Below are positions 43,901 through 64,000 of a stretch of 64,000 nucleotides of DNA, piece after piece (position 1 is the first letter of the stretch; each line of letters begins with the position of its first letter). The notes beneath the pieces are model-generated. The model made no database searches and was not told where the DNA came from. It saw only the letters and a list, made by a program, of their open reading frames with translations. Position numbers and translations under genes: made by a program. The stretch is taken from positions 7,445,789-7,509,788 of the forward strand of contig NC_049994.1 of assembly GCF_000003815.2 (NCBI RefSeq), written 5' to 3'. This stretch comes from Branchiostoma floridae. Its lineage: Eukaryota > Chordata > Leptocardii > Amphioxiformes > Branchiostomatidae.

Positions 43901-46900
43901 AATTGTAAATTAGAAGTCTGCACGCGAACAGAAACGTCTTGTTAGCCTTTAACACTAAGTGCAGCTGATATCAACAGCACCGAATGGGGTAGTCTTGGTC
44001 GGTATTGTCGATCGCGAGGAAACAATCAATCCAAAAAGTTCGCGCGTCTACAATTCCAACACTAAGATTGGAGACTTTTTGCAAGGAAAATTTAAGAAGC
44101 CATCTACAACGTAGCTCTACAACCATCGATCAACAGAGACGGGGGCGCCATAGGCTTTCTGCAACTTATGATCTACTGCTCACCGAGTCACGTGTTCTAA
44201 TTCTGCATAGCATGACGTCACAGGAACAGCTCATTTCTTGACAAAGATTGGAGTTTGGTAGTTGAATATTTCGGTCCAAATTTTTGGTGTTGGAGATTAC
44301 ACAAAAATTCATTGTTATTGGTTCTCTGAGTAAGTTTATTATGACAGAAAGGATGGAATATAAAGACTTACCACTAGCAGTGGCAGAGCTACCCACGAAG
44401 TGATGGTTGGACTCACCCCCTGGACGGACAGTGGGATCGTCCCGTCCAGGCCCTGCCATGGGATCCCAGGGGAAACCGCCCGACCCCACGGGGGGAGACG
44501 GAGAGTCATTTGGATCCAGTAGGAAGTCCGGGGGGATGTCTCCTCCCGACTCCGGGACCGAGGGACGGTCCACTCCTGCACGGGGGATGATGATCTCTCC
44601 GTTACACTCGTCCGTCCCGCACAGACAAGTGTACATCCCCGGAAACTGAGCGAAAAAAGAGGTCAAGATTAAGGATTAATTTTTGTAATCATACAGAAAC
44701 AGTGAAATAAAAGCAAGTTGACTTCATATTCATAAACATTAAAGCTTGTTTTCCTTAAAATTAAAAAAAAATTCTCCGAGATGATGAGGATTCTTCTTAA
44801 CTACTAATTACTAGCATCATTTTCTACTTCATTTCCCGCCTTTCTCATTTGATGTTATTTCATTTTTTTTCCTTTTTGTTTTCCTATTCCTCATTCTGTC
44901 TCTGTACAGTCGTAACTTTGTTATGTTGGTAGTTGATGCTTACTGTATCATCTGCCCTGCATTCGTCCTCCTGAGGGTTGTTGAAGTTGAAGCCGGGCCA
45001 GCATCCCGTCTGCACTTCATACGTCATCTCTGCCGTCTGGTTGTCCACCACAGGGTACATGGACGCGACGCAGCCATCGCCCTCCCCCTCGCACACCTTG
45101 ACGTAGTCGCACCTGACGTCACAACGTCCCGTGACGTCATCGCACACGGGCGTCGTTCCCTCGCAGGCGCGGCACGACGTGGCGGCCCGGGCGGGCGACA
45201 TCAGAGCAAGCGCTGTGGAGACATCAACAAGACAAAAATGTCAAATGATTTTCAAAGATGGCGGCGGCCGTAGCTATCATGCTAAAGGCATCGCCCTTGG
45301 AGCGTCGCTAAAAATTAGAACTTACGAAGCTCACAGTAGTTGCCTTGCTGTGTTTTAGAGGTTGAAATTACAAACGCTATAGGAGGTTCCCCTTGGGGAA
45401 TTGTTGTCATTTTTTTTTTTAACCGGGTAAACTTCAACGGCATCAAATAAGTTTGAAACAAGGACAAGCTCAAATCCTTGTCATTCTTTTAAAGGAGTAA
45501 ACTTCAACGACATCAAATAAGTTTGAAACAAGGACAAGTTCACGGCCGTATCTGGTGAGTCTCACGTAGTTGCCCCGCACCTGTTACTGTTCTCCAGACC
45601 TTCTGACAAGCCGCGTACTGCAAACTACAACTGTCATAAACGGAGGGCGCACTAGGGGTTTTCCACAAGCCTTGATATTTTCGTGACAACAACAACGTCT
45701 CGTATTTTCCCAAGTCTATGCCACTTACCCGACATGTCACTTGCCTCCAATTGACAAACTTTTCAGTTGTTAAAAGATACTAATAAATCCAGTAACATTT
45801 CTTGAAACAAGAACTAAGAGAAACACGAGGCATACCGCCAGTATGTTTCCGTCCGAAGGTTTGATGCAGGTTGGTGGTGACATCCCCGCGTTGATAAAGC
45901 CACATACAACAACACATGAGTCATACGTGAGAACACCAGCCCACAGTACTCCAACACTAGTTTAACAACAAACACGGTATTTCGGCTGGTGATCCTTTAA
46001 AAGCAGTCAGGCGAGGAGACAGAACCACACAACCACACCTGAGACTACAAACATGTTTACTCAAAACTTCAACTTGTGTCATTAAGTGTAGGGAGACAAT
46101 AGTAAAAAGGGAGTGGGCTACAGTATCAAGTGTCGGGCCATACATGGGCAATGATAGATGTCTGTACTAATGGTGAGCTTCAATTGGGTTTCAAAAAGCC
46201 GCTAGGGGGCCCAAATCTCCACCACCCACTCTCTACCATTCAAAAATCACGACCACAGCACACTTAGAACACAACATATCAAAATCACCGCTGCAGGACC
46301 ACAGGATGTCGCTAGGTGGCTCATTATTGGACTTGAGACCTTTGTTTGTTTGTTTTTCTTTGAATCCTACCCACCTACTACATATCATAAGGATTCCTCA
46401 AAGACTTTTCGTGTTACGGGTGAAACAAACACACACACACACACGCACACAGACACATACAAATAAACGGCACCCAAAACATAACCTTCGAAGGTGATAA
46501 CCATGTTCCAAAATCTATGTTAGTACATTGATCTTTTTCTGTTTAAAAAGTATTTTTCATAACTAAATATAACAAGTTGTACAACTGCTGAATTGATGGA
46601 TAAACATAGACGATATACCCGTGAGAACTGTACGGGGGCGAGGTTAGGAATGCGGATTTTAGCATCTTCCTATGTCTATTATCATGCAATGAGGCATCTG
46701 GAATCTATTGAATCTGACATTTCTAAATCCCTCCCTAATATTAGTGACTGGAATTCCGTCAATCCACAAATCTAGACAAAATCAGAAAAGTCCTATTCTG
46801 CTTTGATGCGATTTTCTGTACAATTGAAACTTTGACAAATCTTCACCTAAGAATGGCATGCTTTTTAACAGCCCCACTAACATCTATAATGATTCTCCCC

Positions 46901-49900
46901 ACCCTTGACCTTCCCCTACACGTCATAATGACCGCTCCCCGCGGACATGGTTACCTGGAATTCGATAACGAGTGTTTACAAAAGAACCGGGCGGTTTGTT
47001 GTCGGCGGTGAGTTCAGACGGTGTCGCACGGGACTCCTATCTCTCTACACATCTCCCTTTTACAAGGACTACACTGTTACCATGGCAACTACGTCAATCA
47101 GTCGGTAAATCACCAAGCTTCAAAGGTGTGCCCTTTCGGAAATTAGACCCATAGAGAGAGATGTGGTTCAGTGAAGCAATCCTTAAACAAACGTCTTAGC
47201 AAGTTTCCAGCATAGAGAACTCTTGATAAACATTCCGACACATCACGAACTTTTATGTTGAAACAATAGTTTGAAGCAATATGCTGGCAACAACAGATAC
47301 TACTGCAAGCTTAAAAGTAAAAGAAAAGTTTCAAAACTCATGACAAACAGAGCACAGAAACTTTTTTTACACAGTGATCAGACAACAAAGCAAGGAGGCT
47401 TTAAAACGTTTTTATATGAGTATAAATTGTGTAATAAAACGATTATTTCATCAACAGAACTGAGCCAAAACAGAACTGACTATCTACGTTACGCAAAAAA
47501 AACCTACGCTCCACAATTATAATAATATCGGGTGTATATATTGGGTGTATATCAAACTTTATGGTTCTGACTGTCTTTCTATTCTGTCCACGGTGATATA
47601 CATGAATATCTGTGAGAACTATAGTAAGAGCTACCGCTGTGCGGTTTCGTGACGGTATAATTGCCGATAAAACTTAGGGGATTCACTAATGATGGCGTCC
47701 TGTACATTTCTGAGAAGACCTTCCTCCCCATGCCCCCCTCCCCATTCCCTCGGGCCATGGTCCTAACTGGTCAGGTCTGGTTTACGTTAGCTGACGACAT
47801 TCCGTTCTAACTCCACCTGTTGGGCGGTGCGTCAAGCTACGCTGGACTGTCCCATCAAAAATATTGAAGGGGGTATCAACATTTTAGAATTGTTTGATGA
47901 AACATTTTTTAATGTTTGTACAAGAATACGCCATAATAGTTGAGAACGAGGTGAATAGTTTTGTTTTCTTTTATTCACCAACAATAAATGACAAACTCGT
48001 TTTTTTTCTTTCAATTATTTTTGGCGACCGTGTCATTTTGATCAATTGATGTTGTAGTCCCCATTGTCTTTTTCAGACACCTTTCTTCGCAAAGATATGT
48101 ATGTTCTATAATTACGAAACTTTTTCAAACTTTCAAACGAGAAATTGGTATACTAATCGTATGAATCTATGATATCACCTCCATAGTTCACAAAAAACAA
48201 TATTTTTTTTCAATTATAAATTTTCAATTAAAAATAATTTTCATTTATAGGTTCCAACGCTCAAACACAACCAACAACAGTACCTCAATCGTAGGTGAAT
48301 CAAGGAGGTAAATGATCTCCTTAAAGTATGACAAGTGTTAAACTTAAAGACCCCCCGTAGTCGGTACTGTACAATCAGTCCACTTATCCAATCAATCTGT
48401 CTCTCCTTACCTCCACTTCAAACACATCGCTACGAATTAATGTCGCCTTTGTCTCCATCTTAGTTACCATGGCAACGCCTGGGCATCAAAGACGTGCCCA
48501 AGGTCACGCGCCTGACAAGGTCAGTCAATTAGCCGCCGTAATTGCCCCCCTCCCCCAGAGTGATCCGGGCTTCGATAGCGCCGTTATTGTTGGCAAAATC
48601 ACAGCTGTGGAGTGGAGGGTGTCGGGGGGACAGGTGAAGGAGTGTCGGGAGGACAGGTGAAGGAGTGTGTCGGTAGGACAGGTAGCATTTCTGTCAACCA
48701 ACACACGGCAAAATCATGGGAGAGAGAAATAAAACTAGGGGGGGGGGGTAGGGCAGGTGAAGGAGTGTGTCGGTAGGACAGGTGAGGGAGTGTGTCGGTA
48801 GGACAGGTAGCATTTCTGTCAACCAACACACGGCAAAATCATGGGAGAGAGAAATAAACTAGGGGGGGTAGGGCAGGTGAAGGAGTGTGTCGGTAGGACA
48901 GGTGAGGGAGTGTGTCGGTAGGACAGGTAGCATTTCTGTCAACCAACACACGGCAAAATCATGGGAGAGAGAAATAAACTAGGGGGGGGGGAGGGCAGGT
49001 GAAGGAGTGTGTCGGTAGGACAGGTGAGGGAGTGTGTCGGTAGGACAGGTAGCATTTCTGTCAACCAACACACGGCAAAATCATGGGAGAGAGAAATAAA
49101 CTAGGGGGGGTAGGGCAGGTGAAGGAGTGTGTCGGTAGGACAGGTGAGGGAGTGTGTCGGTAGGACAGGTAGCATTTCTGTCAACCAACACACGGCAAAA
49201 TCATGGGAGAAAGAAATAAACTTGGAGAAGCTGTAGGGGGTTATCAAAACAAATCTTGGAGGTGCAGTTTTGAAATTAGAGCTCTTGGGGACAGATTTGA
49301 ACGTATCACGTGTATAGTTTATTTACAAGCGAGACAATTATTTTCAGGTCAAAAAATAGACGAATTTTAGAAAATATAAAATTCACCATTATTTTTCTTC
49401 AACTATTTACATTTTGTAAAACATACTGTTTGAAGATTTTTCATGTGGATTGATGTCCTATTCAGGTCGGAGTTCTTGTATCCAACGGTTCGATGAGGAT
49501 TATTGGTCCGTAAGTCCTGTACATGAACTTGGACAAGTGTTTGACAAGCCAACTTCCGTGGTCAACTTCCTTGCTAATCTGATAGCATTAACTTAACAGT
49601 GTGGGAGGTCAACTTGAAGAAGACAACCGTCTTGATAAATGCTGTTTCTCTCTCCGTCTGACTCTGTCTCCCTCTCTCTCTCCCCTCTCTCCCCCTGTCT
49701 CTCTCTCTGTCCTTTTCTCACCCCACTCTGTCTCTCTCTACGTTTTGGTGGATTTGCACAAAGCCTGGCCCCCCAAGTCGTACCCTTCACAGACCCACCA
49801 CCATTTTGTTTGTTGATATGATCTACCTTTTGTATAAACAATACTGTTGTACTTCACATGCAGGCGTGCAGATGAATAACTTACTCGCATCAGTGAGAAC

Positions 49901-52900
49901 AAGGACTATATGTCTGTGACAATACTTTACGTTTGGGATCGCATTGTTAGCAGCGACACCTATGCTGCAGTGCGAAGTGAACAAGTCAGTACTTTGCCCT
50001 GAAGGTCACCAAAATCAACTGTTGTTACATTACTTGGTTTTGATTAAAGAATTTTGTTATCCAGAAAATGTGCACCTTGTATGTCAAATAATCCAAGCAG
50101 AATAACAGATGTTGCGATAGAAGATCTTAACGTCGAAAAGGCTACAGTCCTTCTTTTCTACGGAGTTATAGTACTTTTAGTTTTCTACATTACATGTAAC
50201 TCGAGCCCTGTCTTTCTTTAGCCACGAACTTACAAGAACACCACCGCATTTGAAGAATTAAGTTAAGGAACTTGCTACAAACGATTTGCCATTCATTGAC
50301 ACAGAACCCTATAATTTGGGCCATAGATAGTCCCTAGTTTATGTTAGTTGTATAGAGTTCTCACTTGTCAGCTTACATCCAACCTGAATGCTGTTATTGT
50401 TTACTCCTTCATAACACCTTGGTATTTCGGACCCTCCTAGATCTAGCAAAAATATACCTTACTCACAAGTACCCTGTACTTTGTACCGTAGATGTAGTCC
50501 CTACGTGAGTACAAAATTACAGTGTCTGGAGTAAACACTACTATCCACTACACACCTTGTCTAATGTTTGAACTATGCCGGGTTAAGAGGATAACTCCTG
50601 AGTATGTATGGAATCAGACATGGTATGAGGTAACCATCGTAACCAAGGCTGTGCTGTTTTCATACTTTACGGGGCTTACCCACTTAAAACACTACATATA
50701 TTATTCATGTCCCAATGGCTATGCAACTTGTAGATCTATTCTAAGCGTTTTTGTAATCTTTTCGTCGTGAATGTTGTTGACAATGAGGTAGCCATCGTAG
50801 TCAAGGCTGTGCTGTTTTCATTCTTTTAACTCTACGAGGCTTACGCCTTTGCATACATTATGCATGCCCCAATGACAAGGGAACTTCTATATCTATTCTA
50901 ATTATAAGCGTTTTTGTCATCTTTTCGTCGCGAATGTTGTTGACAATGAGGTAGCCATCGTAGCCAAGGCTGTGCTGTTTTTATAGTTTAACTCCACGGG
51001 GCTTACCCACTTAAACCACTGCATATATTATGCATGTCCCAATGACTATGGAGCTTCTACATCTATTCTAAGCGTTTTCGTAATCTATTATTTTCGTCAT
51101 GAACGTCTTTGACTTCGAAAACCCAACCCTAACCACATGTGACAGAACCAATCTTCTACAAGGATCCAAGAGTAATACACCCTGCTCGGCGAATTTTCGG
51201 TAGCAACAGCAGAGTTCTGACAACTTTGGTACGCGAACGATTCACGACAACCCTAAGACTAGTAAGAGATATAACAGAATATCTAAGAGGGTAACTCACT
51301 TATATATTCTCAAAAGCTATACGTACCTTCACGTATCATCAATAGATAATGTCCTGATATGATTATGACTAATTGGCTATAAATATCCATAACATATTGA
51401 TAATTCGCAAAGTTTGCGATCGTACGAATACCGTACGAAGATCGCACGACGAACGTAATCGGGCCCGAAAGGACAACAATAACAGAACGTACCTGAAACT
51501 TGTTACATAACTGGTCAAACTTACTTTAAAGACCATCCGAAATTGCAAACTCGTGCATTAAGGCTTAATTATTCCTCCAGCTGTTTCTTACCGTTTCTCA
51601 GGAAGTTGTAAGAGTTTTCTATCAGACGGCTGTCGTCTCAAGAAGACTTGGGTCAAAAAGAAGACCCGACATTGGACATGTTCCAAAACTAGTTTGGCGT
51701 GAATCCAAGGTCAGGGACCCTAACTAGGGTCTACGCCGTTTGGATTGTTCCATTTCAACAGCGGGTGTGCGATTCTAAATGAAGCCGGCTTCGGTTGACC
51801 AATTTACTCTTTAAATTCTCGTTTGACTGATACAAAGAATCACAGTAAGCGATAATAGGTACTCCTTCTTATTCATTACAATGAAAATAAAATAAAAACA
51901 CCCCTCTTGATTGGACTGACCCAGACATAACTAGTGCGCACTCTCCCATAGTGAAGCGGTCGTGTTGAACATCTTATCTGACGTTCTTGCACTCAAACAG
52001 AGCGTGGTGCGCTTTAAGGGTTTGTTTGGCGAAGTTGGGCGACAAAGTCAACCGAGCTCTCAGCTGTTGTACCAGCAGACTAAAGAGTTGGTGATATACG
52101 GAGAGAAGTGGGAGGGGGGCAGTACAGTGACTATTAAACTCTGACTAAAATATGACAAACTCTGGGACATGAAGAAGACGAAAAACAAGAAAGGAACATT
52201 AACAAACAACATTGACAGAGGAAGAGTGGGAGGGGGGCAAAGTTGTAGAATGACGGAAGAAAGGCTACTACATGTGCAAGGAAACCCTAGGACATAAGGA
52301 AGAAAGAATAAGAGTAAAGGACCAACAGAAGAAGAAGAATAGATCAAATTCCTTTGAAACGACACAACACAACTGAATACCTGACAAAGAGGAAGACAAA
52401 AAGGCGAAGACTTTAAGTATTAACATAAACTTAAAGACTAGAGTAGAATGTCAAAGACTGAAGGATTTGCCTTGCTTATCTAAAATATACAGTAGTGTTT
52501 TAGAGGAACGGTGAATGGTATAATCAATGCAACCAGAAATCTTCGCACGGTTTTCCAACATGTAGACAAAGACAGCACCACTCCTAAACATGTTGTTACT
52601 GACAACTTGAATTGTTTATTTACGTATGTCTGCCCAGCCACTGTACCGACATGACCCAACCTAATTCCGATGTCTGTTGATCTTTAAAATCACATCTGAA
52701 CTGCGATAAAATTACCAAGATTGCAAGAAATCTTTGGTTGGACGCACAAAACATTTGTCTATAAATATTGCCAAGCGTATTTTAGCCCAGAAACTTGTTC
52801 TTTTTTAAATATGTCCCAAAGTGTGTATCCTTATTCGTAAGTTCTTCGCAAAGTAGACTTGAGTTGTAAGTAGCAGAGTTATGCTTTCTTTATCTGAACA

Positions 52901-55303
52901 ATTAAGTATGGCAAAATGTAGTATTCAGAAAAGCAAGTAGTAGTGGTGAATCTGCTTTTGCTATGTGCTCTCGTACTTCAAACAATTATACAAGTCCAGC
53001 GAAGTCATGCATCGCATACAAAACACACCCAATTCAGCTGCGAACAGTTGAACACTAAGATATATTGCCGTGGTGTTTTGCGTTAAGCTAACATAAACAC
53101 ATAGACACACAAACACCACTAATATTACTGTGAAGAATTGTTTTTGTGACTGGAACCTTGTATTTCTAGCTCCGGGGTTGCCACGGCCCAGGTATGTAAG
53201 TCATGCCAAGGTCGACCCAATCAAAATGGCGGAGGGGTTCCTAAAGCCTGGCTGCAGCCAAGGTCAACATGTTGACGGTACAAGGTCATTATTAGAAAAG
53301 GTGGGGCATTAGGAGGGTTAAATAGGGGGAAAGGCAGCAGTTTAACCTTTGAAGACCAAACCGTACGAACGTGAGGATAGGTTGTCAACCCCTTTTTGAT
53401 CCTCAGTTATATCTACACACTCACTTTGACAAGCAATTATGGTCCAATGACTTCAGAAAACTTTTTCACGGATTCACAGCTGGAACCTAAACTTTTCATT
53501 TCTTCTTCTTCTTAACCATAAAATACCTCACATAAACATCTAAAACAAGAAAAAGAAGAAAAAAACAGTACCATTGATCGCGTTAACCTGTATAAACTAA
53601 CGTTATAATAATATAGAAGCGTACAGACTTTGTACAAATGTATACTAGTAGCTCGCAATTCCAAGCGCGGATTTTACCAAGTTATCTGACTGGAAGTTGT
53701 GGTTTGACCAGGATTTAATCTGATTCAGTTCCTTTACTATGCGGCTCACAACCAACAATAAAGTATTATCCGTATGTCAAGATAAATACCGCATTGTCAC
53801 CCCAGAATACAATATATGCTAGTCACGGTGTGTTGTGTAGATAATCTACATTCACTGACTTTCTACATTGAGGTCTTCCTGTGAGGCATGGGCTTCCGAA
53901 ATTGTGTCAGAAACAGTGCAGCATTTGCACATGTATGATTCACCTCCTCACATATGTGGCAAAAGTTGTTTTTCCGCTTTTTCTTTCACAGTGAGTCACA
54001 GAAATATATATAAACAATGGAAATACAGTGTAAACTAAACTAAACTAAACTAAACTAAACTAAACTAAACTAAACTAAACTAAACTAAACTAAACTATAC
54101 TAAACTATACTAAACTAACCCAACCGACCGAAGAACTCTACTTTGCTCACTTGACTCTAAACTAGTTGCTTCTTCAATTTTCTATTTCTGCAATATGAAA
54201 AAGGCCAGTTTTGGCAGACGGCATAGCTTTACTTTTTAATGCATCTTCAATTTTCGTATCTCTAATGCTGACAAGCAGAAATTACTTGAAGCATCACTGC
54301 ACTGATGTAGTTGTAATGTATAATTGTTGTAGAGTACCGATTCTGAGACACAGTACTTAACGCAAGCACCCCACTTACTTAACTCTCAAACAAGACAGCC
54401 CATTTATCTTGAATGGCTTTTTAAACCTAGACAGTCCCCGCAGGTTACCTGACCATACCAAGACGCTCCCCTGGGGCGAGGTGAGCTCCTTTAAGGCCCG
54501 CCTCCCAGGAGAACTGGCCCGACCAGTGTCTGGGACTGCCCGCCCCGAGCTAGCGACCTACGGCCGGGCTGATTTCCCCTGCCCACTGACTTCAAACCCG
54601 AACGAAAACACACCGAAATCTCAGTAGGCAAACAAACAGCTGGACGAAACGAGTGATCCAAGCCGTCCAGTTCCAACTTTGCCCTTGAAGTTGTACGAAG
54701 GGAATTATACAGGGAGGGGGGTGTACCATTTTTACCAGTCTTACAGAAGACAGATGGTACGAACGAGCCATCGCGACGCAGAGAGCCGACATAGACAGCA
54801 CGCCAGACACGATTTTCTACTTCACTGACTGTACATACATTCACTTTAAATCACTGCATGTCTTGTACAAACATACTATACTTCACAGCAAAAATGCATG
54901 CACAACTACCACACATACAACACAAGCGAGTAAAAAAGATTCACAGTGTACAGTCTCGTATAGTACTAGTGAACACACAGCTAAGTCTTCAATGTATCGA
55001 CTTACCAACCACTTCTTAAAAGTGTTGTACTTGAAGGTGTTGTATCACATCCTAGAAAAAGATACAGCTTCTCGGAACTCGATCGGTAGCGACAAAACAG
55101 CACAGCGGATGCGTGAACAATGAGCCTCGACGATCTCACACGATTGTAAACTCCTCAAACTTCGGTTGTAAAAGTCGCAGGTGAGACTTACCGATTGCTA
55201 AGGTGGTCAACAGAAGACTGGAAGTCGGTCCGACGATTGAACAGCCGCGACGCCGGTTCGACGCCGCCAGTCCCCAACCCCGACGCAAAGTCGCGGAAAC
55301 CAT
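34756..55303 (-). CDS. TGFBR2: TGF-beta receptor type II (serine/threonine kinase receptor)
   Basis: Binds TGF-beta-type ligand and phosphorylates type I receptors at the plasma membrane. Eight exons: 55303-55192, 45212-44944, 44645-44372, 38178-37509, 36960-36840, 36358-36217, 35616-35486, 34953-34756; all junction phases agree and give 638 aa (human 567-592). Signal peptide about 1-47. The three-finger ectodomain has twelve Cys, as in human, and ends [13 protein letters not shown] Pro/Gly-rich stalk about 150-218 makes it longer than human. TM about 230-252, no GS domain. Kinase: P loop GKGRFAEV, Lys341, FLTAEER, HRD Asp443, DVKSSN, DFG Asp461, [44 protein letters not shown]. These are TGFBR2-specific and not ACVR2 or BMPR2 motifs. 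Intron 1 (10 kb) holds one arm of an inverted duplication. Confidence 0.97.
35486..35616 (-). CDS. TGFBR2: TGFBR2 exon 7
   Basis: 131 bp. [43 protein letters not shown]; acceptor TTGTAG, donor gtgagc. Confidence 0.95.
35878..36085 (+). mobile_element. tRNA-derived SINE in TGFBR2 intron 6
   Basis: Head with A-box-like GTGGCATAATAGAAAGATG and B box GGTTCTGGGTTCAAATC (35926-35942). The body ends in a conserved CGTGGTTAGGGCTG...GAACCCACCA segment typical of invertebrate-deuterostome SINEs. Confidence 0.6.
36217..36358 (-). CDS. TGFBR2: TGFBR2 exon 6 (activation segment end, helix F)
   Basis: 142 bp. [20 protein letters not shown], then [20 protein letters not shown]; donor gtcagt. Confidence 0.95.
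36840..36960 (-). CDS. TGFBR2: TGFBR2 exon 5 (catalytic loop and DFG)
   Basis: 121 bp. [26 protein letters not shown], ends ANSGQ; donor gtcagt. Confidence 0.95.
37509..38178 (-). CDS. TGFBR2: TGFBR2 exon 4 (transmembrane and kinase N lobe)
   Basis: 670 bp. Acceptor TCCCAG, donor gtgaga. [22 protein letters not shown], juxtamembrane region, P loop [15 protein letters not shown], catalytic VAVKIF, and ends KMPIAH plus two bases of the HRD Arg. Confidence 0.96.
39548..39617 (+). CDS. Candidate first coding exon of an unidentified nested gene
   Basis: ATG at 39548, 23 codons ([23 protein letters not shown]) plus one base, then a consensus gtaagt donor. The peptide is helical and acidic. Upstream within 130 bp are a CRE (TTTGACGTCATT at about 39460) and a CCAAT box (39472). 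I found no continuation exon on this strand. Family unknown. Confidence 0.35.
43530..43625. repeat. Two-copy tandem repeat, period about 55 bp
   Basis: CGAATCTGTCTACACGAACC ATCTGCTA appears twice. Confidence 0.85.
44372..44645 (-). CDS. TGFBR2: TGFBR2 exon 3 (finger end and stalk)
   Basis: 274 bp. Acceptor CGCTCAG, donor gtaagt. Begins [20 protein letters not shown], then an acidic Pro/Gly-rich stalk much longer than in vertebrate TGFBR2. Confidence 0.93.
44944..45212 (-). CDS. TGFBR2: TGFBR2 exon 2 (ectodomain)
   Basis: 269 bp. Acceptor CCACAG, donor gtaagc. Encodes [20 protein letters not shown] through [21 protein letters not shown]: nine of the twelve ectodomain cysteines. Confidence 0.93.
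45425..45545. repeat. Two-copy tandem repeat, period 72 bp
   Basis: GTAAACTTCAACGNCATCAA ATAAGTTTGAAACAAGGACA occurs at about 45428 and about 45500. Confidence 0.85.
47076..47089. promoter_or_regulatory. Perfect RFX X-box (left arm, first)
   Basis: GTTACCATGGCAAC fits the X-box consensus, followed by TACGTCAATCA. Reverse counterpart at 63537-63550. Confidence 0.55.
48469..48519 (+). pseudogene. Unidentified gene, left copy, block a (start codon in X-box)
   Basis: ATG within GTTACCATGGCAAC (48463-48476). Seventeen codons ([17 protein letters not shown]), then a gtcagt donor. One residue differs from the right copy. Upstream sequence has a 5' UTR-like TCTCCATCTTA. I call the left copy a pseudogene because block c is frameshifted. 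Confidence 0.4.
48600..49225. repeat. Minisatellite, unit 120-125 bp, five copies (left arm)
   Basis: GGTAGCATTTCTGTCAACCA recurs at 48681, 48806, 48926, 49049 and 49169. Units contain AGGAGTGTGTCGGTAGGACA GGT and a variable G run. Confidence 0.93.
49466..49509 (+). pseudogene. Unidentified gene, left copy, block b
   Basis: 44 bp between a TTCAG acceptor and gtaagt donor; frame from block a gives [14 protein letters not shown] plus two bases. The length matches the right copy exactly although the first half has diverged strongly. Confidence 0.35.
50630..51110. repeat. Three-copy tandem repeat, about 155-160 bp (left arm)
   Basis: GAGGTANCCATCGTANNCAA GGCTGTGCTGTTTT occurs at about 50627, 50786 and 50948, each followed by TATTATGCATGCCCCAATG-like sequence. 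The right arm has one copy. Confidence 0.85.
51627..51692 (+). pseudogene. Unidentified gene, left copy, block c, frameshifted
   Basis: After a TCTATCAG acceptor the frame reads [17 protein letters not shown] one-base deletion relative to the right copy then diverts it to a stop at 51690-51692. Confidence 0.35.
54031..54117. repeat. (TAAAC)n microsatellite
   Basis: About 17 TAAAC units, with TATAC variants at the right end. Confidence 0.97.
55192..55303 (-). CDS. TGFBR2: TGFBR2 exon 1 (signal peptide)
   Basis: ATG at 55303-55301 in Kozak context cgccATGG, 37 codons plus one base, donor gtaagt. The exon ends [10 protein letters not shown]. The phase-1 join to exon 2 gives [19 protein letters not shown], one continuous hydrophobic signal core, which is why I link it to an exon 10 kb away. 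Confidence 0.85.
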
Positions 55304-55510
55304 GGCGGGAGAAAATGGTAATATGTAAGCGGGGGAACTAGAAGACAATACCCGTCTAGTGTCCCCGACAGGAAATGCCGTAAATGTTCGCAATAGTCAC
55401 TGAGCTGGTGGAGTCGCGAGTGAGACAGTGACTCATAGCTAACTTCCGCTGTGTGCGTAGTTCTGCAAGCCCCCGCCCCCGCAACGCACCGGAAGTGGGC
55501 GGAGCTAACC
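55304..55510 (-). promoter_or_regulatory. TGFBR2: TGFBR2 promoter/5' UTR region
   Basis: GC-rich and without a TATA box. Contains an AP-1 consensus TGACTCAT (about 55429), a GC box CCCCGCCCCCGC (about 55470), an ETS motif CCGGAAGTG (about 55490) and GGGCGG (about 55497). Confidence 0.55.
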
Positions 55511-58241
55511 AGCGCTTTAACTCAAATAGAGGCTCTTAAGAAGTTCTTAAGACACGTCTTACGGGGTCAAGCAGTCGCAAGCTAACCCCAACAAAGACGT
55601 AAACATTTCAATAAAACACACACCAGCAGACATAGCTTACATTAACCCCCATACAAACTTTAACAAAGCCCATTGCGTCCTTTTATGATCAGAACAGGTG
55701 TTCTTAAAACCTCCACTGTGAGCCTTATACAGTAGGACCCATCAATCACTATTGTACAGAAGGGTAACCTGTGATGGATAATCTTTAGCCAGATCATTTT
55801 CACATTCCCATGCAGTCACCTGGGGGACGATAGATATCTTGTACAAACCACAGGCAGAGATCGCATCAAAACGTGACACTAACAAGTTCCGGTGTTGTGA
55901 ATAATTGTGTTGTTGTTTGCTGTTCTTGTTTATATCTTGATTCGTCTCTGTAATACTTTGCCTTTAACGTTACCTCCACGAGCACGGGTATTGGTGCTTC
56001 AAAATCTGTGGTCTGAAATTTGAGAGAAAGGTTTGAAAGAAAAGAAAAGGCAGCGAACTGATTTCAAATTGTAAATGTCGATATGTGTGACCCAAAAAAA
56101 GTTAGTTCTAAAAGCAATGCAACCCTTACCTATATTTGCGATTCATCCCCAGAAATAACAGCATAGGGAGTATCCGTTTAATGTGTTGGGGAATTTGACC
56201 TTTTGGGCAAGATTAATCAATTACAGCGCTAATTCTCACTATGTTATAGATATTTATAAACTTCTAATCACAATCATGACAGAATAATATCTATTGATGA
56301 TACGTGAAGGTAGGCTTAGCTTATAAGAAAATCCATAAGAGTAACCCCCCTCCCCATGTTGTTATTGAGCTAGCCTGACCTGTTCCCTGTACGGTGACCC
56401 AGGGGGCGTGGCAATGACGACAGACGAGCCCTTTAAATGACGTAAGGGTTAGTTCACTCTAAAGTACGGGGTGAAATCGTCAAAATACTTTTAGTTTTGG
56501 TAGAATTAGACAACAAATGTCCCAATATCTAGTCCAACAAACGTTGTAACAATTATTTTACTTTTAAAAGGTAAAAAGTATCGTAATTAAAGAAGAGCCA
56601 GAACATAAGGATATGACGTCTAAGAACTGTTCCCCTCTAAAGAATAGAATCGCCCACCAGACTTCTCAAGAAGCCACACGTGTGTGTGTTTTGGCGCGAA
56701 GTCGATGTGTACATGCCAGTGTGCTGTCTGTTAGCAGCAAATCAAATAGGGATTGATGAAACTGTGGGAAGCTGATCTTTGGGTGTATTAACTTTGAGGC
56801 GCAGCAAAAATACTGAATAGATGGATTGAAATAGAAACGAAAATGGGAAAAATTAAAGTGGGTAAAAAAGACGAGCATCTCCTGTCGGCTGAGCATAAAA
56901 TGCACGTGTGGGTGGACAAGTTATTTCTGTCAGCTAGGGACAAAAATTATGGACTAAAGATAAAGATCCAATGACGAGCGCGTGGGTTGAAATATAGGTT
57001 AAAAGTCATCAGACACCAAAATATATCAGTATACTGCAAAACCTGTACTGTATCGGTACCCTAATATCGTGCTGTACCCGATGATCGCCCACTTTGGGTA
57101 ATGCATGTGCCTGCATGTTGCAGTGTGTTATGGAAAAGCAAGTTCTTATGAGCAATAAAGGACATTGAAAAAAAATTGTATTCAGCGATATAACAGAATA
57201 GATTCGTAAGTGGAGTGAAAATCTGTTTCCCGAATGGAAAACATGTTGTTTTTGTTTGTGTGTTCTTCTCCTATGTCTGCCATGAACCAATCAGAGCTTA
57301 GAACTGGCGGTGACATCAGCATATTACTAGCTGTTACAGCAAATATGAAAAAAGTATAATCTTTTACAGCAAATATGAAAAAAGGATTTTAGCTGCTACA
57401 GCAAATATGAACAATTTAATACAGGTTTGCTGTATCGATAGCGTGTGTTTTTCATACGATTCGTAAGTTCTCGCATAGTGAATCGTGCGGTTTTCATAAC
57501 ATTCGTACTTTTTCGCATAGTGATTTGTGCGTATTCCATGAAATTCGTGCAAACATATGAATGCCTGCAGTTTAATTCCAAAACTCAAAACCCTTTCGCG
57601 AGGGATTTCATTTTGCGGAAACAGATATTCGGGTGATCATATGATTTCGCGGCGAAATAGCGAAAATTTAAAAAAAGCGCCAGCGAAGTTAACACAATCT
57701 ACAGTATGTTCCCCTTGCGTCGTCTGACTGTAATGTAGTGATTTAGCCCATGGCTACTTCCCCTCAGCCAATGAGGAGCCCCCATTTTCTGTTGATATAT
57801 CCACATAGTATGGTGCTATGAAAAAAAGTGTGCTGCTATTTCATGCAAATGAGGGAAAAACTGTGGTGATATCAAGAAAACAGGGGTGATATCTGCCTGA
57901 AAACTAGGAGTGATTTACTCATGTGACCCGTTCTGACCAATCCTCGCTTACCTTTGAGACCATCTTCTGGGACCAGAATAGTGTCATGTGATAACTGACC
58001 AATCCCACTCTTGACTTCTAATTGCCCAGAGGAATATCACCAGACTTCTGTCTCTCCAGGCACCTTGCCCGGGAAGGTCTTGACAAGATTAATGACCTTG
58101 TGTTGTTACAGCCAGAAACTGTCTGTCACAGCTTTTCAAGCAATAACAAGAAAGATTGTGGACTTTTAGGACAAAATAAAGTAACATTTTGTAAAGCTGA
58201 TGAACTAGAAAAGCTTCGGGGAAGTATGCCATGGGCTAAGT
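55511..58241. other. Loop of inverted duplication upstream of TGFBR2
   Basis: No recognisable gene. It has a three-copy TACAGCAAATATGAAAAAAG repeat (57335-57412), a diverged tandem pair with TCGCATAGTG (57455-57540), and a 45-bp match at 56275-56315 to inverted sequence at 51328-51370. Confidence 0.6.
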
Positions 58242-58407
58242 TAGTTACCCCATGGTCTTGGGCTCGTTTTCTGTGAATATCACCAGGCCCGCCACCTCGG
58301 GGATTTCTAGTCTCCCCTCGGGCTTCGCCCTCGGGGAGACTAGAAACCCCTCGGTGGGCGGGCCTGGCGATATACACAGAAACCTCGCCCCGCCCATGGG
58401 GTAACTA
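58242..58407. mobile_element. GC-rich foldback element, 166 bp
   Basis: Ends TAGTTACCCCATGG and CCATGGGGTAACTA are exact inverted repeats. The inner arms CACCAGGCCCGCC...CCTCGGGG and their complements extend the hairpin almost to the centre (CTCGGGCTTCGCCCTCGGGG). Outer TA may be a target duplication. Confidence 0.8.
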
Positions 58408-58684
58408 TTACTTGTGCGAAGCTACGAGAACTGTTGACAGACAGACCAGACGGACCGCGTGGGCAGCTGTTTTCTCAGGAGGGTTCGGCGGTGCGAATGT
58501 GTGCCGGGTTACGTCATGCTAGCGAGAATAGTTCCAGACGGCATGGTCGTGTGTAGATGTGCCCACTCAAAGTCCACAAACAAAATCCTAACATGTGGTG
58601 CGTCACTGAATGACAAAATTTCATTTTGTGAAAATACCGACCGAAAGTCCTTCCATCGGAAGTAGAGGTCACATGACGTTGAGT

Positions 58685-58685
58685 A

Positions 58686-58716
<31 letters not shown>

Positions 58717-58740
58717 GCACACACACACACACACACAAAC
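58685..58740. repeat. (CA)n(CG)n(CA)n compound microsatellite
   Basis: CA run, then about nine CG dinucleotides, then CA run; an alternating purine-pyrimidine tract that could form Z-DNA. Confidence 0.95.
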
Positions 58741-60251
58741 ACAGAAAGAGAGAGACAGCGACGATACAATGATATAATTATTATAGGGCATATATAATAT
58801 AAACGTTGTATCTTGTTTGGCTCTAGAGAGATCAGCATTTTCACAGCAATGACTCAGTCCTCTATTTTTACATTTTAACGTTACATGTATGAGGTCATGT
58901 TGTTTACACTTTGCATTTTGGTATATCTCATTCTATTTAATTCCCTAGCACTTGTTAAATCCTGGGGTGACAATGTGGTATTTATCTTGACATACGGATA
59001 ATACTTTATTGTTAGTTGTGAGCCACATAGTAAAGGAACTGATCATGAATTAGATTATATCCTGGTTAAACCACAACTTCCAGTCAGATAACTCGGTATA
59101 ACCAGCGCTTAAACTTAGAGCAAATACATTTGTTAGAGATTGTGATGTTATAATGTTAGTTTAACTTGTGCAAGTTGACGCGTTCAATGATTTACTCCTT
59201 CTTATTGTTCAATAGAACGAATGTTTAAGGTATTTGTGGTTAAGAAAAAAATATGAAAAGTTTAGATTCCAGCTGTGAATATGTGAAAAAGTTTGGAACT
59301 GGGAGCAAAAGCATTCTTTAAAAGATTTTGTGTTTCTTATGTTATAACGTAAGTTAATACAGATTGACGCTTTCAAAGTAGTATTTTGCTTCTTTCCCTT
59401 GTTCAAGGAAATGTTTCTAACAGCTACCTTCTGGTAAACTTGTCATGAAAAAGTTTGGGTTTCAGCTGGAAAACTATTCTAGCTATAATAATCTTATAGT
59501 TATTGGTCCATAAATTCTTGTTATGATGGGGGAGGGGGTAGATTTTATAACTGAGGATCAAAAAGGGGCTAGCCACCTATCCCTACGTCCGTACGGGCCA
59601 ATCTAGCTGGGTTGATCCAATGCCTTTTCCCCTATTTAACCCCCAAATGCCCCCACCTTTTCCAATAATGACCTTGTACCGTCAACATGTTGACCTTGTA
59701 CCGTCAACATGTTGACCTTGACTGCCTCCGCCATTTTGATTGGGTCGACCTTGGCATGACTTACATACCTGGTCCGTGGCAACCCCGGAGCTAGAAATAC
59801 AAGGTTCCAGTCACAAAAACAATTCTACACAGTAATATCAGTGGTGTTTGTGTGTCTATGGTTCAGTTAGGTTTATATAACGAAAAAACAACAACAAGAC
59901 AATATAGGTTATCAAAGTGTTCTATGTCCTCAGCTGAGTTGGGTGTGTTTTGTATGCAATGCGCACCACGCTCTGTTTGAGTGCATGAACGTCAGATAAG
60001 ATGTTCAACACGACCGCTTCACTATGGGAGAGTGCGCACAAGAGATGTCTGGGTCAGTCCACTTGGGAGGGGTGTTTCATTTTCTTCTTAATGGTTAGAA
60101 TTAATATATCTACTATCGGGTTGCTTATTGTGAGTAAAACGAAAATTTTAAAAATAACTTGATCAACCGAAGCCGGCTTAATTTATCATCACACACCCGC
60201 TGTTAAAATGGAACAATCCAAACGCCATAGACCCTAGTTGGGGTCGCTGAC

Positions 60252-60336
60252 CTTGGATTCACGCCAAACTAGTTTTGGAACATGTCCCAATGTCGGGTCT
60301 TCTTTCTGACCCAAGTCTTCTTGAGACGACAGCCGT
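60252..60336 (-). CDS. Unidentified gene, right copy, block c
   Basis: 85 bp between TCTATCAG and gtcagc; completes Pro, then [28 protein letters not shown], ending in phase 0. Joined to a and b it gives an open 60-codon N terminus. Further exons were not identified with confidence. Confidence 0.4.
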
Positions 60337-60368
60337 CTGATAGAAAACTCTTACAGCTTCCTGAGAAA

Positions 60369-60478
60369 TAGCCTGGTATCCAGCCGTAATATAGCTCCCG
60401 AGTCTCTTCTCTCCTCTTCTTAATTGCGAAGAGAAGAGAAGAGACTCGGGAGCTATATTATGGCTGGATACCAGGCTA
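60369..60478. mobile_element. Foldback element 5 of AGCCTGG hairpin family (filled site)
   Basis: 110-bp near-perfect hairpin: TAGCCTGGTATCCAGCCGTA ... TATGGCTGGATACCAGGCTA, with AGCTCCCGAGTCTCTTCTC paired by GAGAAGAGACTCGGGAGCT. The left duplication arm lacks it at the matching place (51580-51605). Confidence 0.85.
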
Positions 60479-61527
60479 CCTGACAAAGAAACAGCTGGAG
60501 AAAGACATTTTGTTCTTTAAGTAAGGTTAACTCCAACTAATTACTCGAATAACAGGTTTTCGGTAAGTTCTGTTACTGGCTGTCCTTTGGGGTCCTGGCC
60601 ACATTTGTTGTACGATCGTCTTACGATCTTCGTACGATTGCAACCTGAGTGTACATGTATGTTCTTGAGAAAGTCGTGCATTTGTCGTAGGTATAAAATT
60701 CAAAAGTCTTTTTTACCAAAGGAGCTGTCTTGGATCATTGTCGTCGTGTGGAAAAATATATGAAATCCAAATCGCACGACTACCTACGATAAAAAAGTAC
60801 TATAACATCCTAGTTGATCAAGCTAATTTTGGGTCTAAGTAAAGTCAACGTCAAGTTTACGTATGAAAACAGCATAGCCTTGGATAAGATGGCTATCTCA
60901 TACCATATCTCATTCCATACATACTCAGGAGTTATACTCTTAACCCTGCATAGTTCAAACATTAGACAAGGTGTGTAGTAGAGGGTAGTGATTATTCCAG
61001 ACACTGTCATTTTGTGCTCACAATTGGACTATCTACAGTACAAATTATAGGGTATCTGTGAGTATGGTATATTCTGTGCAGATCTATAGGGTTGCAAAAT
61101 ACCAAGGCGTTTTTAAGGCAGCGAAGGAACAATAACAGCATTTAGGTTAGGCGTATACAGGTTAAGTAATAATTGTATACAAGTAACGTTAACTAGCGAT
61201 GTCTATATCTATCGCACAAATTACTTGCGGTTGTCCGTAAGCATAACAAATATTGTGTAGCCAGTTCCGGTAAGTCAAGTACATAGGTTTCTCTTGAGAC
61301 AACGGCCTTTCAAGTAATAGCAGTTGTTAGGTTTTATGTAAATTTATGTAAATTTAGAAAAGTGAGGGAAATGAAAAGTGTAATGTTTTTTTTTACGTTT
61401 GATCTTCCACCACACCGCACCACATGTCACTTCAATGACGTTATCAGACCATCATCAGCTTAGCAAAGGAAGTTGACCACGGAAGTTTGCTTGTTAACAC
61501 TTGTTCACGTTCATGTACAGGACTTAC

Positions 61528-61571
61528 GGACCAATGATCCTCACCAGACCCCCCACCCCAACAACGCTGAC
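61528..61571 (-). CDS. Unidentified gene, right copy, block b
   Basis: 44 bp between TTTTCAG and gtaagt; VSVVGVGGLVRIIG plus two bases of Pro, in frame with block a. Confidence 0.4.
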
Positions 61572-62029
61572 CTGAAAAGGACAACATTTAACATGCGAAA
61601 ACTGCTGCTAAGTCCATGTTCATTTGGTTATATGGGTGACATCCGCGCACGCTTCAATTTTCAGCCGGCTTTTTGGACCATACAGTAAATCGTACAAAGA
61701 AGATGCAAAGTTAGCAAAAAATATATTGTGAATAGCAATAAAGATATCAGAAGACCAATACTAATGTCATACAGTCTCAGCCTCAAAGTCAAAGAAAGAA
61801 CAAAAATAAGTAGTTTTGCGTTCAAACAATTCTTCAACCTCCATGACCACTTTGATTTAATAGTGAAAACTAAAGAGGGGGGCAACTTTATTTATTCGCA
61901 CGCTCTTACCAGAGTTGTCCAGGCTAATCTATAAAGTATATGCAGAGATTGCCTCTTTTGCAGATACATTGTACAGCACTTTGTATCACATCAGCACTTC
62001 ACCCCCTCCGCCGGGGCCAAGCAGCTTTG

Positions 62030-62445
62030 ATAGCCCCCCCCCCCAAGTTTATTTCTTACTCCCATGATTTTGACGCGTGTTGGTTGACAGAAATGCTACC
62101 TGTCCTACCGACCCACTCCTTCACCTGTCCTCCCGACTACCCCCCCCCCCCCAAGTTTATTTCTTTCTCCCACAATTTTGCCATATGTTGGTTGACAGAA
62201 ATGATACCTGTCCTCCCGACCCACTCCTTAACCTGTCCTCCCGACCCCCCCCCCCCTCAAGTTTATTTCTTTCTCCCATAATTTTACCGTGTGCTGGTTG
62301 ACAGAAATGCTACCTGTCCTACCGACACACTCCTTCACCTGCCCTACCCCCCCCCTAGTTTATTGCTCTCTCCCATGATTTTGCCGTGTGTTGGTTGACA
62401 GAAATGCTACCTGTCCTACCGACACACTCCTTCACCTGTCCTCCC
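62030..62445. repeat. Minisatellite, unit about 105 bp, four copies (right arm)
   Basis: Inverted counterpart of the left-arm array: TTGACAGAAATGCTACCTGT recurs with variable C runs. Its shorter unit lacks the doubled AGTGTGTCGG block. Confidence 0.9.
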
Positions 62446-62549
62446 GACACCCTCCACTCCACAGCTGTGATTTTGCCAACAATGACGGCGCTATCGAAGC
62501 CCGGATCACTCTGGGGGAGGGGGGCAATTACGGCGGCTAATTGACTGAC

Positions 62550-62600
62550 CTTGTCAGGCGCGTGACCTTGGGCACGTCTTTGATGCCCAGCCGTTGCCAT
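62550..62600 (-). CDS. Unidentified gene, right copy, block a (start codon in X-box)
   Basis: ATG at 62600-62598 inside a perfect X-box (62593-62606). Seventeen codons ([17 protein letters not shown]), donor gtcagt. RFX X-boxes mark ciliary gene promoters, but here the motif overlaps the start codon. I do not recognise the protein. Confidence 0.45.
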
Positions 62601-63536
62601 GGTAACTAAGATGGAGACAAAGGCGACATTAATTCGTAGCGATGTGTTTGAAGTGGAGGTAAGGAGAGCCAGGTTGATTGGATAAGTGGACAGATTGTAC
62701 AGTGCCGACTACGGGGGGTCTTTAACGCTGGTCGTACTTTGAAGAGATCTTTTACCTCCGTAACGGAGGCTCACCTTCGACGGAGGAATTGTTTTTGGTT
62801 GTGTTTGTACATTCGTACCCATAGCTCAAGATTCCTTTTGATGGATTTTAATGGAATTTGGTCAGTGGTAGTTACTGAGGTTCCAACGAAACATGACGAT
62901 TTGGGGCCCCTAGCTACAGTTTGAAGTGCTGCAGTATTACGGGCCAACAACCATTTCCTGAAAGTAGCCTAGTGCCGTATAGTCCATGTACAGCTAGTGA
63001 GTCATCATCCCTATCAAATAACCCCTTATAGGAGGAACATAGTTGGGATTGATTAAGGGAAAGAATGGGAAGATCTCCAACATCCGTGATGGCTATGGCA
63101 TTGAGAAATTCGCTTCACCGAGTTATGGGATCTCCCATCTCTGATTTGTACCAGAAGGAAGATACACCATTATGTGTACTTTTTATTCTATGTGAACTAT
63201 GGAGATGACACCATACGTTTCCATAGTTCATCGTTCATCACATTATCCGTTACAATGAACGGGATATCGTAAAGACAATACGTTTTGTCATCTGTTCCTC
63301 ATGAATGTGAAGTTTCAAAGTTTTTATGTTCAGAAAGTGTGAAGTGGCGTCTTTTGTTCCCAGCATGTTTCAAGAAAACGTTTGCACATCTAACACTTGC
63401 AAACAATTGGTATGTTTGTCATGAGTTCTCTATGCTGCAAACTTGCTAAGACGTTTGTTTAACTCGTCTCTCTATGGGTCTAATTTCCGAAAGGGCACAC
63501 CTTTGAAGCTTGATGATTTGCCCGCTGATTGACGTA

Positions 63537-63550
63537 GTTGCCATGGTAAC
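63537..63550. promoter_or_regulatory. RFX X-box (right arm, first)
   Basis: GTTGCCATGGTAAC, the reverse complement of the left-arm motif, retained after duplication. Confidence 0.55.
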
Positions 63551-63790
63551 AGTGTAGTCCTTGTAAAATGGAGATCTGTAGAGAGATAGGAGTCCCGTGC
63601 GACACCGTCTGAACTCACCGCCGACAACAAACCGCCCGGTTCTTTTGTAAACACTCGTTATCGAATTCCAGGTAACCATGTCCGCGGGGAGCGGTCATTA
63701 TGACGTGTAGGGGAAGGTCAAGGGTGGGGAGAACCATTATAGTTGTTAGTGGGGCTGTTGTGAAGCATACCATTTCTGTTAGGGAAGTTT

Positions 63791-64000
63791 TATGGAAACT
63801 AAATTTTTCTTGTCTATTTCTATTTTCACCTTTATCCGTTGGGTAGCCTATATCCGTTGTTTCGAAAAACAGGACATTGAGGGATATCAAGTCGACCCAT
63901 GGTGCACGTGCAATATGTCCGTCCGCGTGTGTATACTAGTATGTGTACCTGCATTCAGCATTAATCTAGAAGATTTTATGGATGAAGCTTAAGTGACGAA
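63791..64000. other. Sequence beyond the right arm
   Basis: About 200 bp with no match to the left flank at 46560-46840 and no recognisable feature. Confidence 0.5.

Follow-up and report, generated by a model that had tools for sequence, protein, structure and literature searches.

The TGFBR2 locus of Branchiostoma floridae raises the question of why a promoter lies between two mirrored copies of neighbouring sequence and what has kept parts of these copies alike. The window, i.e., the whole stretch of 64,000 nt analysed, had been described in the first-pass annotation as carrying blocks at 46.85–53.8 kb that reappear in reversed order and orientation at 63.8–58.95 kb, around a 5.1-kb spacer. 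Self-comparison corroborated both the blocks and the spacer (5,122 bp, 53,823–58,944), the latter with TGFBR2 exon 1 (55303-55192) and the promoter region inside it, as annotated. No matches were detected when the arms were compared on the same strand or when the right arm was reversed but not complemented. The outer ends, placed at 46.85 and 63.8 kb, were wrong: ten further collinear inverted blocks plus weaker ones reach 38,046 and 72,155. Traced as far as gaps allow, 38,046–53,822 pairs with 58,945–72,155 via collinear inverted blocks, so that the duplication is about twice as long as first reported and its right arm runs past the window end to about 72,155 (window numbering). The collinear inverted blocks delimit the following parts:

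38046..53822, minus strand: left arm, the original copy, running from TGFBR2 intron 1 through nt 133 of exon 4
53823..58944 (5,122 bp), no strand assigned: spacer between the arms, with the TGFBR2 promoter region and exon 1
58945..64000, plus strand: in-window part of the right arm, an inverted, decayed copy

The inverted chain consisted of 18 blocks and 6,951 aligned bp. Among four control regions of 50 kb each, no inverted chain exceeded 3 blocks; control region C1 had two of that length, and the remaining three regions had no such chain. Two copies that are collinear and oppositely oriented to a degree beyond chance make this an inverted segmental duplication. The inner breakpoints are sharp, near 53,822 and 58,945. 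The spacer core itself is not duplicated, apart from two short stretches similar to pieces of the arms (56228-56347 and 57222-57418), and its sub-stretch 54000-54500, the sole part of the spacer searched, had one match genome-wide.

The exons of TGFBR2 were read from the sequence as follows:

55192..55303, minus strand: exon 1, 112 nt, start codon and most of the signal peptide (in-phase join counted by hand)
44944..45212, minus strand: exon 2, ectodomain; no right-arm counterpart found (splice sites and phase by hand)
44372..44645, minus strand: exon 3; no right-arm counterpart found (boundaries by hand)
37508..38178, minus strand: exon 4 open frame, transmembrane segment and kinase start (the lower end is the end of the open reading frame, the donor site not being fixed)

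By hand reading, the junction of exon 1 with exon 2, whose first base is 45212, keeps the phase and yields one continuous signal peptide. The kinase exon matched best the solved chains of TGF-beta receptor type-2 (E 2.7e-50, versus 1.5e-29 for activin receptor 2A) and is thus closest to this receptor. The exon 2 ectodomain gave a weak hit to Pfam ecTbetaR2 (E 0.0044, 17.4 bits, below the cut-off of 25) and no match in the PDB. The earlier placement of the remaining TGFBR2 sequence beyond the left arm proved incorrect, as the arm contains exons 2 and 3 and terminates within exon 4, of which it includes the first 133 nt. That the arms are the 5' half of TGFBR2 itself had been overlooked. In the right arm, comparison of the arms revealed neither exon 2 nor exon 3, and the exon 4 counterpart is truncated and interrupted by a dispersed repeat. 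Across the 124 kb examined, neither a second first exon nor the kinase part of exon 4 was found on the right side, which had one exon 4 fragment only. As a copy of TGFBR2, the right arm is dead.

Among the matches listed in the genome-wide searches, matches to the arms elsewhere were confined to dispersed or simple repeats within them, so that the arms are low-copy sequence and not a dispersed repeat. These searches scored the best 40 candidates, which in one arm search were filled by one transposon, and weaker copies (below about 370 bits in one search and about 720 bits in another) could escape; the segment 41370-46850 was covered through its right-arm counterpart.

The alignable part of the arms was 87.2% identical over 6,930 aligned columns (approximately 13% divergence), but this identity is distributed very unevenly. 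The range given earlier, from near identity to about 90%, understated the spread, the chained blocks showing 74–93% gapped identity with exact runs up to 157 bp. Neighbouring stretches align at about 40–55%, the level of unrelated sequence. Windows of 50 columns with at most one difference numbered 30 of 125, against 1.1 expected, and the patchiness amounted to 4.4 times the binomial variation. Many windows were of intermediate divergence, with no clean two-state pattern. Sixteen islands of 50–267 columns, 96–100% identical, occur in the same order in both arms with poorly alignable sequence between them (left-arm coordinates, no strand assigned):

38817..39022: island in intron 3, 206 columns, 2 differences to 70964-70759
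41366..41465: island, 100 columns, 3 differences to 69625-69526
41782..41858: island, 77 columns, 1 difference to 69224-69148
42199..42428: island, 231 columns, 8 differences to 68640-68410
42664..42830: island, 167 columns, 4 differences to 67283-67117
43503..43566: island, 64 columns, 0 differences to 66300-66237
43633..43682: island, 50 columns, 0 differences to 66170-66121
45565..45677: island, 113 columns, 3 differences to 65095-64983
45821..45937: island, 117 columns, 3 differences to 64678-64562
45955..46092: island, 138 columns, 0 differences to 64531-64394
46893..47159: island with a putative RFX X-box at 47076 (twin 63537), 267 columns, 6 differences to 63733-63467
48401..48641: island with a putative RFX X-box at 48463 (twin 62593), 241 columns, 3 differences to 62668-62428
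48665..48726: island opening a tandem array, 62 columns, 0 differences to 62427-62366
51607..51714: island, 109 columns, 2 differences to 60355-60247
51934..52012: island, 79 columns, 1 difference to 60039-59961
53100..53235: innermost island, 136 columns, 3 differences to 59860-59725

Open frames through the left-arm islands were little above chance (23 versus 17.6 expected), although one frame of the island 48401-48641 is open in both arms. Three ORFs tested, covering two islands, had no match in Pfam. Coding islands are disfavoured on both counts, and the islands appear to be non-coding, a view supported rather than proven by the frames and domain searches. Structured RNA was rejected as well: the Rfam scan of 46000-64000 returned 18 matches, none above the gathering score, and ARAGORN detected no tRNA at the locus. 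The sub-threshold miRNA matches fall on a hairpin element at 60.4 kb, an inverted repeat at 58.3 kb, and a dinucleotide run, and four further sub-threshold matches in this stretch were weak and scattered.

The islands are GC-richer (0.49 versus 0.41) but not enriched in CpG (observed/expected 0.73 versus 0.79). They contain a 14-mer motif which we take to be the RFX X-box. All four such 14-mers in the 124 kb examined lie within islands, two per arm, and three were found in 200 kb of control sequence; genome-wide the motif has 3,466 sites versus 7 for the reversed control. The islands had 45 motifs in total, a number that none of 300 shuffles reached (mean 12.2); scaling from the remaining left arm, a comparison set that still included exons 2-3 and the left-only insertions, gave 18.2. 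Most of the telling motifs had been noticed in the sequence before counting, and the counts serve as support only. After removal of the pre-noticed RFX, nuclear-receptor, YY1, and PBX motifs, the excess over the remaining left arm was about 1.5-fold, a figure that still includes some motifs also glimpsed beforehand (AP-1, FOX, SMAD, homeodomain, and the CRE half). No ETS, SOX, RUNX, TEAD, SRF, or full CRE motifs were found within the islands.

On balance, we lean towards the view that the inverted duplication is old, that its coding part decayed, and that cis-regulatory elements were retained to either side of the promoter. The duplicated segment of TGFBR2 measures 16 kb and runs from intron 1 into the beginning of exon 4. 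It was copied long ago, probably by template switching, and the copy lies inverted upstream of the promoter of the same gene, which was left with exon 1 in the 5-kb spacer. The exons of the right copy decayed, whereas the islands may be cis-regulatory elements under purifying selection on both promoter sides, gene conversion perhaps aiding their identity. The loss of exons 2-3 and the broken exon 4, set against islands elsewhere in the arms that are 96–100% identical, were counted in favour of such selective retention. From these patterns we infer a probable enhancer function of the islands and selection as the probable cause of their identity.

The main rival is a possible, if somewhat unlikely, explanation: the same old inverted duplication, in which functionless islands are alike only through repeated short gene conversion, while sequence that had diverged too much was no longer converted and ceased to be alignable. 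Selection and conversion are inseparable from one genome. Island lengths resemble the non-crossover tracts of amphioxus, with a mean of 99 bp and 90.9% under 200 bp according to PMC12500494; the same paper describes GC-biased conversion except in one class of events, and GC-rich islands are what such conversion would also yield. Similar patchiness was seen in one of our control regions. Three of 11 control self-alignments reached 4.9–5.2 times the binomial variation, all of them from one tandem array in control region C3, and the other eight gave 0.71–2.19. The even stretches of this array overlap likely exons and seem to include some intron, which fits gene conversion. Since the control array is equally patchy, patchiness was dropped as proof of function. 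The confinement of all four X-boxes to islands argues against conversion alone, as does the motif density exceeding that of the remaining left arm, partly a post hoc observation. The many windows of intermediate divergence point the same way, but conversions stopping at different times could match them too.

The earlier suggestion of recombination between the arms, by which the promoter and exon 1 would be flipped, was not supported, and the single assembly analysed shows no second orientation. An active switch of this kind, with polymorphic or silenced TGFBR2 alleles as its outcome, is very unlikely. Inverted homology with four near-identical islands does exist, and widely spaced, diverged inverted repeats can interact in yeast when single-stranded, as stated in PMC10164571, which lends the idea some plausibility. 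However, the homologous stretches are short, those four islands of 206–267 bp being the longest near-identical ones. A flipped exon 1 would, moreover, face a copy in which exons 2-3 are missing and exon 4 is broken, so the inverted allele should be null and selected against.

It is still less probable that the arms are two haplotypes of one locus set side by side by the assembly, even though amphioxus genomes are very heterozygous (3.2–4.2% according to PMC12500494). The divergence of about 13% in the alignable part, with arms that look unrelated elsewhere, is outside the allelic range, no run of N interrupts the sequence between 28,785 and 67,597, and coding exons were lost on one side only. 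Each arm also has private insertions, consistent with the indels noted earlier on both sides:

40922..41365, no strand assigned: left-arm-only transposon, 444 bp, flanked by two ATCAG copies (from the comparison of the arms)
60369..60478, no strand assigned: right-arm-only hairpin element, 110 bp, with a relative at 31368-31469

The empty site of the 444-bp transposon is retained in the right arm. A merged-haplotype artefact was rejected on these grounds, in agreement with the first-pass annotation, which had considered an assembly duplicate unlikely. Two inverted copies of one large transposable element, a reading with a negligible chance that only the inverted orientation favours, were rejected, as the segment that was copied consists of introns and exons of TGFBR2 and the arm blocks occur at one locus only among the matches listed, the other matches being dispersed or simple repeats in the arms.

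The closest functional precedent for the preferred reading, by analogy, is the palindromic IgH 3' regulatory region of mammals (hs3a / hs1,2 / hs3b). In 8 species, according to PMC3068965, a centre of 3 kb is flanked by inverted branches about 3 kb long. In mouse, inverted hs3 copies lie at the ends of a 25-kb palindrome, and dismantling it altered function though the enhancers were retained (PMC4757795). Both loci have inverted arms around a non-duplicated core. The IgH loop, however, contains an enhancer downstream of the genes, whereas that of TGFBR2 holds a promoter and first exon; the TGFBR2 arms, known here from sequence, are 13–16 kb long and carry decayed coding remnants. Inverted segmental duplications with a single-copy spacer arise by replication template switching, and the order of arm, spacer, and inverted arm with sharp inner breakpoints is the same at TGFBR2. 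Those known from human disease are young and uniform, unlike the old, patchy duplication at TGFBR2. Duplicated conserved non-coding elements and shadow enhancers are usually found beside two gene copies or scattered. The islands resemble them in being short, highly similar, apparently non-coding, and in two copies, but their order is mirrored around one promoter, and their conservation is judged from arm-to-arm identity only. Mammalian sex-chromosome palindromes gene-convert and are near-identical over tens of kb; they share inverted repeats with high-identity stretches with the TGFBR2 arms, which are 87% identical over the alignable part.

The analogy raises a tentative and rather doubtful idea that the TGFBR2 promoter sits in the loop of a mirror-image regulatory palindrome, in which the same ordered enhancers and paired RFX X-boxes flank the promoter and may act as one folded unit, a mode of action proposed for the IgH 3' regulatory region, possibly serving the divergent PX-domain gene on the right too. 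To our knowledge, palindromic enhancer architecture is familiar from the antibody heavy-chain locus only. The titles and abstract openings listed from the open-access library searched contained no description of the TGFBR2 locus or of a mirrored regulatory array around a promoter. If the islands are conversion tracts only, the locus would be a clean case of how identity persists in patches between inverted repeats for tens of millions of generations. If they are regulatory, it would be a natural experiment in which a dead gene copy had kept its non-coding part alone, mirrored around the promoter, and could test whether palindromic enhancer architecture occurs elsewhere in chordates.

Self-alignment of the window reproduced the inverted blocks that the first-pass annotation had described around the TGFBR2 promoter and first exon. 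The limits proposed there (46850..63790) were too narrow: in the extended sequence, the structure runs on from 38,046 to 72,155. In the genome (513 Mb, 431 contigs), the window occupies C16:7445789-7509788; 124 kb were read, comprising the window with 20 kb to its left and 40 kb to its right and including ten N runs; window numbering is used throughout, with positions from 64,001 onward lying outside the window. Collinear blocks of a left arm (38,046-53,822; span 15,777 bp) recur inverted in a right arm (58,945-72,155; span 13,211 bp) across a spacer of 5,122 bp. No matches were obtained in the same-strand alignment of the two arms or when the right arm, reversed without complementation, was compared with the left one. 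The longest inverted chain contained 18 blocks versus at most three in four 50-kb control regions from other contigs (C1-C4), a small sample in which both three-block chains came from C1. The right arm has one gap of 294 N, beyond 67,597. Because 6,159 N at 74,477-80,635 could hide more sequence, 72,155 marks only how far the right arm can be followed.

The TGFBR2 exons were read by hand from splice sites:

55303-55192, minus strand, exon 1 (112 nt)
45212-44944, minus strand, exon 2
44645-44372, minus strand, exon 3
start at 38178, minus strand, exon 4

The phases agreed at all three junctions, and joined exons 1 and 2 form one hydrophobic signal peptide. Compared with known structures, the kinase part of exon 4 matched TGF-beta receptor type-2 (E 2.7e-50) better than activin receptor 2A (E 1.5e-29); the ectodomain gave a weak match, under the cut-off, in Pfam and none in PDB. 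The left arm is thus TGFBR2 itself, beginning in intron 1 and ending 133 nt inside exon 4.

As a gene, the right-arm copy is dead. Its homology runs along intron 1 until approximately 40 bases before the splice acceptor of exon 2 and picks up again within intron 3; no counterpart of exons 2 and 3 was found in this arm. Exon 4 retains its start and splice acceptor, with homology stopping inside the transmembrane segment; a dispersed repeat (~71,637-72,060; at least 36 relatives of 79-81% identity among the matches listed) and a final 90-bp piece follow. Across the 124 kb, neither exon 1 nor the kinase part of exon 4 turned up in a second copy.

The arms are 87.2% identical across 6,930 aligned columns, and the identity is patchy. 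The variance of 50-column windows was 4.4 times binomial (24.6 vs. 5.6), and 30 of 125 windows had at most one difference when 1.1 were expected. Strict scoring delimited 16 islands, near-identical stretches found in the same order in both arms (50-267 columns with 0-8 differences each; 2,155 bp in total). The weakest alignable blocks agree in about 78-82% of ungapped columns. If these blocks are neutral and mutate at 5.1e-9 per base and generation, the rate quoted in PMC12500494, the duplication would be at least some 20-26 million generations old. Exact runs (138, 148, and 157 bp) would not outlast such a period under neutrality, so selection or conversion must be acting. Tandem arrays adjoin an island in each arm, at 48631-49222 in the left (120-bp units, 4.9 copies, 96% matches) and at 62034-62452 in the right (108-bp units, 4.0 copies, 84% matches).

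Selection on the islands seems somewhat likelier than gene conversion, and a mixture of both is possible. On the side of selection, the islands outlasted the coding part of the copy, contain motifs of a regulatory type, and look non-coding: 23 open frames run through them versus 17.6 expected, and one island, which keeps an open frame in the left and right arm alike, had no Pfam match. All four X-boxes in the 124 kb fall in islands, two per arm; 200 kb of control sequence contained 3. The X-box 14-mer GTTRCCATGGYAAC, which we take to be that of RFX, has 3,466 sites in the genome versus 7 for its reversed control, being ~500 times commoner; part of the listed sites are clustered. The island motif total was 45, against a shuffle mean of 12.2 and 18.2 scaled from the rest of the left arm, the most telling motifs having been picked after the islands had been read. 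Several standard motifs were absent from the islands.

The less likely reading, that the islands are conversion tracts between the arms, draws on a control showing equal patchiness, a tandem array in C3 (C3:11000001-11050000, 30.8-43.9 kb) whose repeats are patchily identical to each other and whose genes, judged from translation, are presumably fibrinogen-related. Of 11 control self-alignments, the three from this array varied by 4.9-5.2 times binomial and the eight remaining ones by 0.71-2.19; the even stretches of the array lie partly, not wholly, over likely exons. The island lengths are also similar to the non-crossover tracts reported in PMC12500494, which likewise reports GC bias for most classes of events, and the islands are GC-richer, with no CpG enrichment in them. 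As four islands exceed 200 bp, rare exchange between the arms is conceivable; a flipped loop would place exon 1 before the dead copy and would presumably destroy TGFBR2.

An assembly artefact was rejected, there being no N within 28,785-67,597 and a private insertion in each arm:

40,922-41,365, transposon of 444 bp in TGFBR2 intron 3, left arm only, flanked by two ATCAG
60369-60478, near-perfect hairpin element of 110 bp, right arm only

The transposon has a 5-bp flanking repeat, and its site is empty in the right arm; among the matches listed, at least 39 copies elsewhere have 92-99% identity and one has 82%. A relative of the hairpin element lies 29 kb off, at 31368-31469, and in Rfam the hairpin itself weakly matched a number of miRNA families on either strand, no match reaching its gathering score. 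A transposon pair was likewise dismissed, the arm sequences searched matching this locus only, dispersed and simple repeats aside, among the matches listed for the best 40 candidates scored, beyond which weaker copies elsewhere could escape; one transposon filled the 40 candidates of one search, and the dispersed repeat in exon 4 most of another's.

In layout, the locus comes closest to the palindromic 3' regulatory region of IgH in mammals; a region of that kind is further defined by enhancer activity and by persistence across species. According to PMC3068965, inverted branches of ~3 kb surround a 3-kb core there in eight species; in PMC4757795, dismantling the palindrome with the enhancers retained impaired some functions, others being little dependent on it. 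Unlike the IgH region, the TGFBR2 locus has a promoter and first exon as its core and arms that derive from the gene's own introns. A fibrillar collagen C-terminal domain exon lies at 6988-7509 of the window, plus strand. To the right of the window, the stretch L004 contains a gene divergent from TGFBR2:

L004 4563-4826 and 5758-6003 (~88.6-90 kb), plus strand, PX-domain (sorting-nexin-like) gene

Because it is sited between TGFBR2 and the PX-domain gene, the right arm could serve either of them.
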